Shown piece by piece: positions 393 to 45,306 of a stretch of 45,306 nt of DNA. The first letter of the stretch is position 1. Each line of letters opens with the position of its first letter. Position numbers and translations under genes: made by a program. This DNA is from a virus, in the IMG/VR virus record IMGVR_UViG_3300030116_002552, positions 1 to 45,306 of that record; one strand, written 5' to 3'. A model generated the notes under the pieces. It was not told the DNA's origin. It saw only the letters and a program-made list of their open reading frames with translations, and ran no database searches.

Positions 393-511
393 AATAATAT
401 AATAATTTACGGGGTGATCTAATAATCGAAACAAAGTAGGGGTCATTGATCAAAGTGGTTACCACGCTCACAAAAAGTCCATAAAAAATTTTTTTTAGTT
501 TTATTTTTTTT

Positions 512-716: not shown

Positions 717-724
717 TATCTTTG
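717..724 (+). promoter_or_regulatory. Bacteroidota-type -7 promoter box TATCTTTG
   Basis: TATCTTTG is a perfect TAnnTTTG match and is identical to the box before the groES-like gene at 1450. The expected start is about 729-732, exactly where the base-paired region begins (732). There is no obvious TTTG at -33. Confidence 0.6.
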
Positions 725-1080
725 CACAAGCACAGGCACTCTTAAACAAGAGTATCACCCCTGAGGATCGAAAGAGCAGTAGGGGGTCAGACGTGGGATT
801 TATACATTCTAATATAATAGTCATCTGGCCAAGTTAGAATGCAAATACGCTTGAAAAAACGCTGTGACAGCGAATCATCGGCAGGAAATTTTCTCCCATA
901 GCCTGTAAAAGAGCGAGTATAGTTCTTAGTTAGGACACATTACACAGAGGTAGGTGTGGTGAATTAACATCAAGATTAGTGTCCTTGGGTCCCCAGTTTA
1001 ATCTGAAATAGTGGGAGCACTGCTAAGAATAAAATCTCAATCGAAATTACAAACTCCTAGGGGGTACCTATATCTACTTC
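725..1080 (+). ncRNA. Candidate structured non-coding RNA or long structured leader
   Basis: This 350-nt stretch has no credible ORF and is visibly richer in G and C than neighbouring genes. It holds many perfect complementary segments: 732-737/901-906 (closing helix), 738-743/748-753 (4-nt loop), 757-761/783-787, 785-791/824-830 (one G-T pair), 805-812/834-841, 860-864/868-872 (3-nt loop), 922-929/1023-1030, 932-938/979-985 and 943-946/955-958. Helices 785-791/824-830 and 805-812/834-841 interleave as an H-type pseudoknot. Some helices are mutually exclusive; for example 880-886/894-903 competes with 901-906. A promoter box ends 8 nt before the first helix. No terminator precedes the SET-domain gene at 1084, so it may be a free RNA or a 5' leader. 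I do not recognise tmRNA, RNase P, 6S, a hammerhead or a group I intron. Structure is inferred by eye. Confidence 0.55.
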
Positions 1081-1083
1081 TCA

Positions 1084-1437
1084 ATGAAAATATACAAACA
1101 TAAAGGTTTATATTTACAAGAAAGCCCAGTGCACGGCTACGGCGTGTATACTGACGTAAAAATTCTAGCGGGAGAGTTAGTAGAAGAGTGTCCTGTTGGA
1201 GATATATTACCTTTAGATTTTAGTAAATACAAACTCACCTTCTTAATGCCGTATCCAAGCCTTAAAAATAAAAAGTCTTTATGGCATCCTACTGGATATT
1301 GCGCATATTTTAATCATTCTAATAGTTATAATGTTGTTTGGGAAATAAACACTAATAAAAATCTAGCATATTTTACAGCAATTAACAATATTATACCAGG
1401 CGAAGAGCTTTTTATCAATTACAATTTGGAAATGTAA
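1084..1437 (+). CDS. SET-domain protein (putative lysine methyltransferase)
   Basis: The 117-aa product is almost entirely a compact SET domain. The N-terminal part has the G-x-G motif in HGYGVYTD (17-24). N77-H78-S79 is the NHS motif that contacts S-adenosylmethionine and the substrate lysine. PGEELFINYN (105-114) carries the catalytic-type Tyr113. No pre-SET or post-SET cysteine clusters are present, so it is a minimal enzyme. The family transfers methyl groups from S-adenosylmethionine to protein lysines; the target is unknown and could be host or virion protein. It directly follows the structured region 725-1080 with no new promoter box, and precedes the promoter of the groES-like gene. 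The fold call is solid; activity is inferred from the conserved motifs. Confidence 0.85.
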   Translation: MKIYKHKGLYLQESPVHGYGVYTDVKILAGELVEECPVGDILPLDFSKYKLTFLMPYPSLKNKKSLWHPTGYCAYFNHSNSYNVVWEINTNKNLAYFTAINNIIPGEELFINYNLEM

Positions 1438-1755: not shown

Positions 1756-2015
1756 TGAAACTGTCAGGAACTGTTACAATAACGTTAGAAGATTATCAAG
1801 CTCTACTAGATAATCACACTAAAATTTCTGAAAGGGAAGAAAAAACAAAACTTGCGGCAAAAGAGCTACAAGTTTTTTTAACTTATATGTGTGATAAAAC
1901 TGATATATCTCAATACGTAGAAGAGTTTAACAGACAATCTAAAACAGCGCAGATATTAATAACTAACGGTAGAGCACAAATAAAATTTAAAGATGAAAAA
2001 GAAAATAACAGTTAA
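1755..2015 (+). CDS. Hypothetical protein, 86 aa, helical
   Basis: The start overlaps the groES-like stop by one base (TAATG), a sign of translational coupling. The product opens with a short beta segment (MKLSGTVTITLEDYQALL), then is mainly charged and helical (SEREEKTKLAAKELQVF), with a polar C-terminus. EDYQALLDNHTK suggests the start of a coiled coil. I recognise no domain. Position between the co-chaperonin and a winged-helix protein suggests an accessory role. The last 23 bases overlap the next gene in another frame. Confidence 0.65.
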   Translation: MKLSGTVTITLEDYQALLDNHTKISEREEKTKLAAKELQVFLTYMCDKTDISQYVEEFNRQSKTAQILITNGRAQIKFKDEKENNS

Positions 2016-2322
2016 TATTGATAGTACATACAAGCATTTACAGTTATGGAATGGCATCTTTGATCTAACAAATACAGAACTAAAAGTTTTGTCTAGTTTT
2101 ATTGATGTACAAGATATTACAAAAGACAGTAATATGTGCTCAATGAAAAATAAAATACAAGTTGCAAGGTTTATAGGTATAAAAGATCCTAACACCCTAA
2201 ACAACTACATTAAAAAATTTAAAGACAAAAGAGTTATCTCTAAAGTAGGGGGTAACTATGTGTTAAATCAATTATTAGATACAAATGCTAGATCCATTGA
2301 GATTACTATTAACAAGATTTAA
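1993..2322 (+). CDS. Putative winged-helix DNA-binding protein
   Basis: The 109-aa product has helices around LTNTELKVLSSFIDV (26-40) and KNKIQVARFIGIKDPNTLNNYIKKFKDKRVISKVGG, with a short wing-like turn and strand after it (VGGNYVLNQLL). The layout of helix, recognition helix (DPNTLNNYIKKF) and wing matches winged-helix regulators and replication-initiator-type domains. It likely binds DNA and could regulate late genes or take part in packaging-site recognition, in the role a small terminase plays in other phages. It overlaps the previous gene by 23 bp. The fold is inferred from pattern; the specific role is open. Confidence 0.6.
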   Translation: MKKKITVNIDSTYKHLQLWNGIFDLTNTELKVLSSFIDVQDITKDSNMCSMKNKIQVARFIGIKDPNTLNNYIKKFKDKRVISKVGGNYVLNQLLDTNARSIEITINKI

Positions 2323-25259: not shown

Positions 25260-25949
25260 ATGTTAGGATTAGGACATAGCCTAAGTAGAGGCGCGTTATC
25301 TAGTGGGTTTAACATACTTGATTTAAGCCCAGAACTTTGGTTAAAGTTTAATACTGGTCAAGGCGCTATTACAGACGGCATACAATGGGATGATCAGTCT
25401 GGCAATAGCAGGCATGCTTCTCAAACAACAGATGCTCAAGAAGGTAGTGGTTTTAGCGGCGGTGCTTTTGTTACTGATGCAAATAACAACGATAACTTAG
25501 ATTTAGCATCTACTTTTAATCTAGCTTCAGATTACCATATATTTGTAGTATTGAATTTATCACAAGAAAGCAATGAAACATTTGTAAGTAGTGTTGACAA
25601 TACTAGCTTTATACGGTTTGCGCAAGGTGGCTCCGACGTTACTGCTTATCGTATGAAAAACGGTGGTACAACTTTAAACATAAGTTTATCAGAAGGTTTT
25701 GGAACTACTAAAGCAATAGCGGAAGTGTCAAGAGATGGTAGCAATGGTGTTAGAGTAAGTAAAAACGGAAGCACTTTAGGAACAGGAACTGGATCTGGCA
25801 CTTTTGCTTTTGAGCAAATAGGTACTTCATCTAATAGTATTACTTCTGGTGAGATACACGAAGTAGTTGTTTTTAGTAGTTTGCTTAGTATGGCTAACGC
25901 CACGCTTGTAAGAAATGATATTGCTGACAGAAATAGTTTAAGTATATAA
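25260..25949 (+). CDS. LamG-like / concanavalin-A-like protein, 229 aa
   Basis: The sequence has the LamG-type beta-sandwich outline: LSPELWLKFNTGQGAITDGIQ, then WDDQSGNSRHASQ, YHIFVVLNLSQESNETFVSS, and the C-terminal SGEIHEVVVFSSLLSMANATLVRND. Such folds bind glycans or proteins. It has no signal peptide. It sits between the exported thioredoxin-fold protein and the T9SS-type protein, 2 bp from each, so all three are translated from one mRNA. It could be a virion tip protein that contacts surface sugars. The fold assignment is by motif order from memory. Confidence 0.65.
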   Translation: MLGLGHSLSRGALSSGFNILDLSPELWLKFNTGQGAITDGIQWDDQSGNSRHASQTTDAQEGSGFSGGAFVTDANNNDNLDLASTFNLASDYHIFVVLNLSQESNETFVSSVDNTSFIRFAQGGSDVTAYRMKNGGTTLNISLSEGFGTTKAIAEVSRDGSNGVRVSKNGSTLGTGTGSGTFAFEQIGTSSNSITSGEIHEVVVFSSLLSMANATLVRNDIADRNSLSI

Positions 25950-32817: not shown

Positions 32818-33344
32818 TGGGAAAACAAATGATTAAAAGAAAAGACGGCTCTTACTCACAACGAGGTCTTTGGGATAATATTAGAGCAAATAAAGGTAGT
32901 GGTAAAAAACCTACTAAAGAAATGTTAAAACAAGAAAAGAAAATTAAAAACGAAAATAAAATGGGTGGCAAAAGAAAACTTTACAAAAAAGGCGGTAAGT
33001 CAGAATTTGGCATGCTTAGCGTAAAAGCAGGGGTTGACAACAATCCTAATCCTACAGCAGCTGATAGAATTGTTGGTGCTAAAAAGAATAAAAAGAAAAT
33101 GGGAGGAAAAGCACCAGAAAAGAAAATGTATGGTGGTAAGAAAAAAATGCAGAAAGGAGGGCAAGGCGGACCATTTATAGAAAAACCTAAAGATATGGAT
33201 CTTCCTAAAAAAATGAAGAAGAAAGGTGGAAAGAAAATAATGATGGGTGGCAAGAAGAAAATGATGGGTGGAGGTATGAAAAAAATGTACCAAAGCGGTG
33301 GATTTTTAGATGCTCCTTCAGTAGTTGATTTAGACAACTTATAA
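32817..33344 (+). CDS. Lys/Gly-rich basic protein with GG motifs, 175 aa
   Basis: Extremely basic: Lys, Gly and Met dominate from residue 40 on, with repeated K-K-M-G-G-K units (GGKKKMMGGGMKK). It ends with Y158-Q-S-G-G162 followed by FLDAPSVVDLDNL. It starts MGKQMIKRKDGSYSQRGLWD, an ordered head region of about 30 residues. It may be an internal DNA-binding protein packaged in the head. The tail resembles that of the 33820-34128 protein (GGFLEPPVEN), so the two may share a recognition or cleavage signal. Start and stop are each coupled to neighbours by one-base overlaps. Confidence 0.65.
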   Translation: MGKQMIKRKDGSYSQRGLWDNIRANKGSGKKPTKEMLKQEKKIKNENKMGGKRKLYKKGGKSEFGMLSVKAGVDNNPNPTAADRIVGAKKNKKKMGGKAPEKKMYGGKKKMQKGGQGGPFIEKPKDMDLPKKMKKKGGKKIMMGGKKKMMGGGMKKMYQSGGFLDAPSVVDLDNL

Positions 33345-44477: not shown

Positions 44478-45306
44478 ATGGCTAAGTACGAATTACCACA
44501 ATACCAGTCTATGTATGTAGACCCTCAATCTGTAGCAATTAATACAGAGTTGAGACAAAGATTTGTTGACTCTTTTGCAGCTGATGATACTTTACAGGCT
44601 ACTGTAGATGGTATGGAAGTTGCAGACTTTGATGGAGATATAAATAGAAAGAACCAGCTAGCAGATCAGTATAACGAGCAAATAAGAGCTAGAGCTGAGC
44701 GAGGCGATTATGAAACTTTAGGTATGTCTATTAGTAGAGATGCTAGAAATTTTATTAAAGACTATACTCCTTTACAGCGTAACAAAGAGCAATACGATAA
44801 TTATATTAAAACAATTGGAGAAGCTGAAAAGCTAGGTGCAGGTAAGCCAGGTGGAATAGATTCTTCAACAGCAGCAAAATTAAAAAAATATGCTGTCCAT
44901 AATTATGACGGATTAGAGTATGATGAAAATGGTAATTTAAATAGAGAGTCTTATTTTAGTGCTCCTGGGTTTGTAGGAGAAGTTAACGAGTATGAGTTAA
45001 TTAAAGACGAAATGGCTGACGTAGTTGCTAGACAAGATCCTAAAAACTTAGGATTTGAAGTACCTTTAGACAGTCAAGGAAAAGCTATTATAGAAAATGG
45101 TATTATTAATGGTGTTCCTAGATATTGGATGACAACTAAAAATGGTCGTGAATATATAGATGATGACTTAGTAAAAAATGTTACAAATAGAGTTTTAAAT
45201 AGGGCAGATGTAAAAGGAGCTTTTAATCAAAGAGCCTTACTTGATACATATATGTATGATGAAATTGTAGATGATCAAGGAACTACAGCGGCTCAAGTAC
45301 AGTTAG
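44478..45306 (+). CDS. Partial structural/internal virion protein (runs off window)
   Basis: Starts at ATG 44478, 3 bp after the previous stop, and stays open to the window end (276 codons seen). It begins MAKYELPQYQSMYVDPQSVA and continues with helical stretches (TELRQRFVDSFAADDTLQAT, NRKNQLADQYNEQIRARAE). I recall similar N-termini (KYELPxYQSMYVD) in large virion or cargo proteins downstream of neck genes in related phages. It has no signal peptide or membrane segment in the visible part. Probably very large in full. Confidence 0.65.
   Translation, partial: MAKYELPQYQSMYVDPQSVAINTELRQRFVDSFAADDTLQATVDGMEVADFDGDINRKNQLADQYNEQIRARAERGDYETLGMSISRDARNFIKDYTPLQRNKEQYDNYIKTIGEAEKLGAGKPGGIDSSTAAKLKKYAVHNYDGLEYDENGNLNRESYFSAPGFVGEVNEYELIKDEMADVVARQDPKNLGFEVPLDSQGKAIIENGIINGVPRYWMTTKNGREYIDDDLVKNVTNRVLNRADVKGAFNQRALLDTYMYDEIVDDQGTTAAQVQL

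Follow-up and report, generated by a model that had tools for sequence, protein, structure and literature searches.

A predicted structured non-coding RNA gene in one group of crAss-like phages

Structured phage RNAs and the locus at 725-1080

Phages and mobile elements carry large, ornate non-coding RNAs such as GOLLD, ROOL and similar molecules, whose function is unclear. HK022 put and other cis-acting antitermination RNAs are structured RNAs that open a long phage transcription block, and ColE1 RNA II is a promoter-proximal structured RNA with a G-rich stretch. The Crassvirales are an abundant phage order. Our searches of the open literature on non-coding RNAs of crAss-like phages, RAGATH RNAs in crAss phages and origins in the clade returned no description of an RNA such as the one reported here; with neither Rfam nor this literature giving a match, this RNA of the Crassvirales has so far not been described there.

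The window is the whole 45,306-nucleotide stretch that we analyzed (IMG/VR record IMGVR_UViG_3300030116_002552). It encodes a crAss-type large terminase and portal, and the terminase matches Crassvirales records at about 36-42% identity. From the comparison of relatives, positions 725-1080 are predicted to be the gene for a folded non-coding RNA that occurs once per genome, at a fixed site, in one crAss-like phage group (Table 1). This identification is, in our judgment, almost certain: compensatory changes exceed the controls and a conserved reading frame is absent. The first-pass annotation had proposed an unrecognised structured phage RNA here, and that description holds, as the helices covary, the RNA is universal in the sampled clade and Rfam has no match.

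We compared the RNA, which measures ~260-350 nt across relatives, to the closest known systems. Like GOLLD and ROOL it is a large structured phage RNA without a reading frame, but it is smaller and has no Rfam match. The phi29 packaging RNA is also a phage-made structured RNA with its gene in a packaging-gene region, whereas the window RNA differs in size and fold and shows no sequence or structure match to that family in Rfam. It is larger and more complex than HK022 put, and in roughly two of every three loci it forms a unit by itself. A promoter-proximal position and a G-rich stretch are common to this RNA and ColE1 RNA II. The RAGATH-6, -7 and -14 and Hatchet RNAs of gut crAss phages are likewise structured, unannotated and near a divergent switch, but they form arrays on the leftward strand behind one or two genes, and match the window RNA in neither sequence nor structure.

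Known RNA families were ruled out by strict and lax Rfam searches of the window and its relatives. With all 4227 models of Rfam 15, including the curated tmRNA, ribozyme, intron and RAGATH models, there was no match at the gathering threshold in either, in agreement with the earlier view that tmRNA, RNase P, 6S, hammerhead and group I intron do not fit. Relaxing the E-value to 10 gave, for the window, matches to two microRNA families and to DM_SisR1 only, all three at chance level and well short of threshold, and a lax search of one relative (L180) gave none. ARAGORN found 0 tRNA or tmRNA genes in the window.

Fold and covariation in relatives

The minimum free energy of 725-1080 folded alone is not exceptional (z = -1.1; 13 of 100 shuffles were as good), so the case for a structured RNA rests on the relatives. 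We aligned 32 full-length sequences of the main type and obtained a model of 11 helices and 55 pairs, including a closing helix that spans a long range and a pseudoknot formed with the 3' tail. Standard pairs fill 96.8% of its cells (88.8% when shuffled), and 23 pairs show double changes. The covariation score is 0.317, versus 0.167 for shuffled and at most 0.076 for slid alignments; for the 3' domain, with 45 sequences including the window type, it is 0.365 versus 0.180 and at most 0.104, the comparison in both cases being with shuffles and slides and not with a phylogenetic null. An APC-corrected G-test over all column pairs, which is independent of the scoring of the helix model, also ranks the helix pairs at the top. 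Covariation exceeds both kinds of control, and we conclude from these alignments that base pairing of the predicted RNA is under strong selection.

Table 1. Positions of the predicted RNA, its helices and associated features (window coordinates unless a locus is named)
Feature	Position	Strand	Basis or remark
Conserved DNA element, outside the RNA	411-475	.	nhmmer, 81 distinct sequences; upstream of the RNA promoter
-7 promoter box TAnnTTTG, Bacteroidota type	717-724	+	box of the RNA gene; spacing to UUUUCUCC in relatives
Structured RNA	730-1076	+	inferred extent, ~7 nt after the box to just past the P13 strand; conservation and pairing in relatives
P1 5' strand ACAGGC	732-737	+	pairs with 901-906; counterpart 100% paired in 32 relatives, double changes at 4 of 5 pairs
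P1a hairpin, 738-743/748-753	738-753	+	window type, some relatives; 3 covarying pairs, 85% paired
P2 hairpin, 757-762/782-787	757-787	+	100% paired, 2 covarying pairs, in window and main types alike
P3 5' strand GUGGGA	793-798	+	pairs with 894-899; CGGA/UCCG versus GGGA/UCCC between types
P3a hairpin, 805-813/833-841	805-841	+	window-type insert; 3 covarying pairs, 92% paired
P3b hairpin, 859-863/867-871	859-871	+	CGCUG/CAGCG; CGUU/AACG in relatives; read by eye
P3 3' strand	894-899	+	overlaps invariant UUUUCUCC (889-896)
P1 3' strand GCCUGU	901-906	+	pairs with 732-737
P12 5' strand	915-917	+	pairs with 1036-1038 (GAG/CUC)
P13 pseudoknot loop UAUA	918-921	+	pairs with tail 1069-1072; 97.4% of cells paired across 32 relatives, all changes one-sided and of G-U type
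P5 5' strand	922-930	+	long-range, pairs with 1022-1030; double changes at 5 of 7 pairs, 91% paired
P6, 932-938/979-985	932-985	+	closes three-way junction; 100% paired, double changes at 4 of 7 pairs
P7	942-945/954-957	+	in P6 junction; 98.9% paired
P8	958-961/968-971	+	in P6 junction; 100% paired
P10 hairpin, 992-995/1012-1015	992-1015	+	double changes in all 3 counted pairs
P5 3' strand	1022-1030	+	pairs with 922-930
P12 3' strand	1036-1038	+	pairs with 915-917
Near-invariant G5 loop, AAGGGGG or UAGGGGG	1060-1064	+	tail rows of relatives
P13 3' strand	1069-1072	+	pairs with 918-921
SET-domain gene	1084-1437	+	directly after the RNA, this clade only; PF00856, E 6e-10; 6 of 106 loci
Hatchet/RAGATH gap regions of gut crAss phages	L202 1665-2262	-	
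	L236 1796-1919		
	L237 1786-2635		
	L238 1789-2707		

In the 5' domain, P1 closes P2 and P3/P4. The 3' domain is arranged as the long-range P12 and then P5 around P10 and the P6 three-way junction with P7 and P8, and the tail includes, besides the G5 loop, a segment that base-pairs with the linker between P12 and P5 (P13). In the alignment of relatives, the junctions are surrounded by stretches that are unpaired and do not vary. The closing helix predicted from the single sequence (P1) and a second domain at 922-1030 shut by a perfect helix (P5) both reappear in the relatives with compensatory changes. P3 of the main type (AUCGGA/UCCGGU) is 100% paired and near-invariant over the 32 rows; in the window type, an insert within P3 bears the hairpins P3a and P3b. 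P12 varies in a paired fashion: GAAC/GUUU, GAGU/ACUU and GAGC/GCUU interchange in the main type, and GAG/CUC, GGA/UCC, AGG/CCU and AGA/UCU can be read by eye in the window type. Its outer pairs fail in some rows, and 81.6% of its cells are paired.

The earlier proposal of a pseudoknot was half right. Its arm 805-812/834-841 is real in the sense that it covaries, extends by one pair at the inner end (P3a) and has both arms swapped jointly in L005. The crossing arm 785-791/824-830 clashes with the better backed P2 and, by eye, shows no compensatory change in the alignment. The pseudoknot with support, unlike that pairing, is predicted to join the loop at 918-921 with the 3' tail at 1069-1072. 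It is less certain than the other helices because, although well paired, it shows one-sided changes only.

Three further roles for the conserved segments were considered and rejected. Pairing of CCUUGG (near 983-988) with CCAAGG before G5 looks fine in single sequences but shows no covariation by eye. Pairing of G5 with UUUUCUCC fails because UUUUCUCC is invariant where G5 varies. The perfect form AAGGAGG, expected of a Shine-Dalgarno mimic, was absent among the tails inspected.

Distribution, genomic place and expression unit

We searched for relatives with the proteins and with the RNA itself. With the SET protein we retrieved five close relatives; the RNA is complete in four of them (94-99% nucleotide identity) and truncated in the fifth. 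Of 80 loci found with the terminase, ~40 carry the RNA, whose core is mostly 72-83% identical in nucleotides; the flanking GroES and small proteins of the same loci are mostly 48-61% identical in amino acids. A 22-nt core pattern occurs in at least 119 viral contigs of IMG/VR, from datasets many of which we take to be marine, and in 0 bacterial genome contigs, where the phage terminase also had no relatives. The invariant UUUUCUCC lies upstream of the core in 103 of 106 distinct loci; the other three comprise two truncated upstream and one short downstream.

A covariance model (R1) identified one high-scoring copy per contig in 17 contigs, nine of which exceed 80 kb. It was also applied to 22 further loci that extend 5.3 kb or more upstream of the terminase, and 21 of these scored strongly. 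The remaining locus, L300, holds a diverged copy (2340-2575, 24 bits). Although its score is chance-like, we accepted it on its place and matching helices: P1, P2, P3, P12, the G tract and the tail are visible by eye, and the P7/P8 hairpins, near-invariant elsewhere, are replaced. By these searches the predicted RNA is universal within the sampled clade, with one copy diverged. It is absent from eight whole records of gut, termite-symbiont or cultured phages (seven listed as Crassvirales; best E 0.25), and BLAST against 50,697 phage records gave no homologues. The weak model matches in the cultured and gut phages, in the window itself (44764-44824, minus strand, 19.8 bits) and in G008 (33066-33133, 22.8 bits) were set aside as chance. 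Since the RNA is kept in nearly all examined members with its pairs maintained while the neighbouring proteins drift to ~50-60% identity, infection probably depends on it. With the alignment and covariance model it can be found in new genomes and metatranscriptomes, and the covarying pairs indicate mutants suited to testing the fold.

The place of the RNA is constant. It is co-stranded with and upstream of groES in 104 of 104 loci, and of the terminase in 89 of 89, at a distance of 2.2-5.2 kb, and it reads into the groES-terminase block. Four long contigs are organized as one leftward and one rightward gene block, the latter split by contig ends in some of the four, and the RNA opens the rightward block at the single divergent switch, where cumulative GC skew is at or close to a local minimum. 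GC skew follows gene direction, so the minimum alone does not show an origin.

The gene next after the RNA varies by phage: SET, LamG-like, small zinc-ribbon-like, peptidase-like, others, or none directly (names read from the sequences, except SET, assigned by PF00856). Because the following ORFs differ, the RNA is not the leader of one gene. A regulatory leader of the SET-domain gene, as once suggested, or a riboswitch of that gene is contradicted by synteny: SET follows the RNA in just 6 of 106 loci, unrelated genes stand there elsewhere, and a separate box precedes the next gene in 64 of 99.

The RNA-groES interval is an insertion spot for varied genes (window 1084-1437; L041, L071, L110, L129, L148 and L153). 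Window positions 1993-2322 encode a conserved small protein with a weak match to the NucS C-terminal domain (E 4e-4, below the Pfam cut-off). Upstream of the RNA, the 70-bp element at 411-475 contains TTCACACGTTCACA-like repeats as well as two runs of GGGGT, and an A/T tract comes after it. We rejected it as a second RNA, as neither strand shows RNA-type covariation; it is probably a regulatory DNA site. A stretch resembling it occurs in cr114_1 (L202 4008-4115).

TAnnTTTG is the -7 element of Bacteroidota sigma-A promoters. The box TATCTTTG is present at 717-724, where the first-pass annotation had placed it. Among 95 loci, 79 have such a box 80-110 nt upstream of UUUUCUCC (83-85 nt in 56), where shuffling expects 1.6, and 9 more, of the insert-bearing type to which the window belongs, have it 160-195 nt upstream, giving 88 of 95 overall. 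The region is free of ORFs, as had been claimed (zero of at least 80 aa between 447 and 1083), and a protein frame conserved across 725-1080, which would have spoken for a coding sequence, was not found: 0 of 91 homologues have a plus-strand frame open over 80% of the RNA. A second -7 box stands before the next gene in 64 of 99 loci; in these the tail hairpin is stronger than in shuffles (-5.1 vs -3.0 kcal/mol) and longer T runs follow. For the other 35, including the window, the next ORF has no -7 box before it and often begins within 24-55 nt. In these 35 loci an mRNA probably begins with the RNA, which would suit a cis role too.

Candidate roles of the RNA

We favor, as the probable explanation, a non-coding RNA gene of one crAss-like clade whose product stands alone and acts in its own right. 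The RNA's own promoter box, with P1 starting at the likely 5' end, argues for this, as do the compact fold, whose tail is paired, and the fact that in most loci the next gene has a promoter to itself. The RNA gene would have a sigma-A-type promoter of its own, used by host RNA polymerase. A 5' domain in which P1 encloses P2 and P3/P4, and a 3' domain in which P12/P5 enclose the P6-P7-P8 junction and P10, would then fold into a compact body, which the tail pseudoknot P13 would hold together, exposing the G5 loop. The product would work as RNA itself, probably bound by protein, during infection. Because the place of the RNA never changes between phages, action in trans is something that we infer, and we lean only narrowly towards a stand-alone, trans-acting mode. 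More tentatively, the RNA may belong to a hitherto undescribed kind of phage RNA that is used throughout a large environmental crAss-like clade and works by a mechanism foreign to known families; it could, for example, prime replication, act as a novel ribozyme or antiterminate the whole late block.

The 35 loci that lack a separate promoter make a cis-acting leader of the whole rightward block the main rival. The RNA would then start the late transcript and either alter the polymerase that passes through it, in processive antitermination as put does, or stabilise the mRNA, whatever gene comes next. The RNA always heads the rightward block and shares its strand, unrelated ORFs follow with no intervening -7 box in those 35 loci, and such boxes are few elsewhere in the block of the window. 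The 64 loci with a new -7 box and a stronger tail hairpin argue against it, and put is far smaller and simpler than this RNA; on this evidence we consider a leader role unlikely.

A replication-priming RNA is improbable. As in ColE1 RNA II, transcription across the divergent region would produce an R-loop at the C5 template facing G5, and the position at the minus-to-plus gene switch near the skew minimum in the four long contigs, the near-invariance of G5 and the adjoining conserved DNA element with its A/T tract are all in keeping with this. However, the skew merely tracks gene direction, and the tail past G5 pairs back through P13, which makes the G tract the loop of a folded RNA.

Less probable again is a self-cleaving or other ribozyme, or a role akin to that of the Hatchet and RAGATH RNAs of gut crAss phages. 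Those phages bear such unannotated RNAs near their own divergent point, and in this RNA too invariant unpaired stretches surround the junctions, but the Rfam ribozyme and RAGATH models find no match here, and the gut RNAs lie on the opposite strand, inside the leftward block. A role in DNA packaging like that of phi29 pRNA, to which the constant place upstream of the large terminase gene would point, is very improbable, as the RNA matches no Rfam family and the other tested Crassvirales with related terminases do not have it.

We also recorded several features of the gut crAss phages. In a non-coding gap near the divergent point, the genomes of cr114_1, cr115_1, cr4_1 and cr53_1 each contain one or two unannotated Hatchet ribozymes, and three of the four also have RAGATH-6, -7 or -14, RAGATH-6 scoring below gathering. 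A non-coding piece of 46-50 nt (L202 ~2667-2715; NC_055897 ~25756-25805) is 91-100% identical among gut crAss phages of several genera. Stop reassignment is known in some crAss phages, and the annotated terminase of cr114_1 (L202 11983-14028) contains 12 stop codons under table 11, which is consistent with such reassignment.
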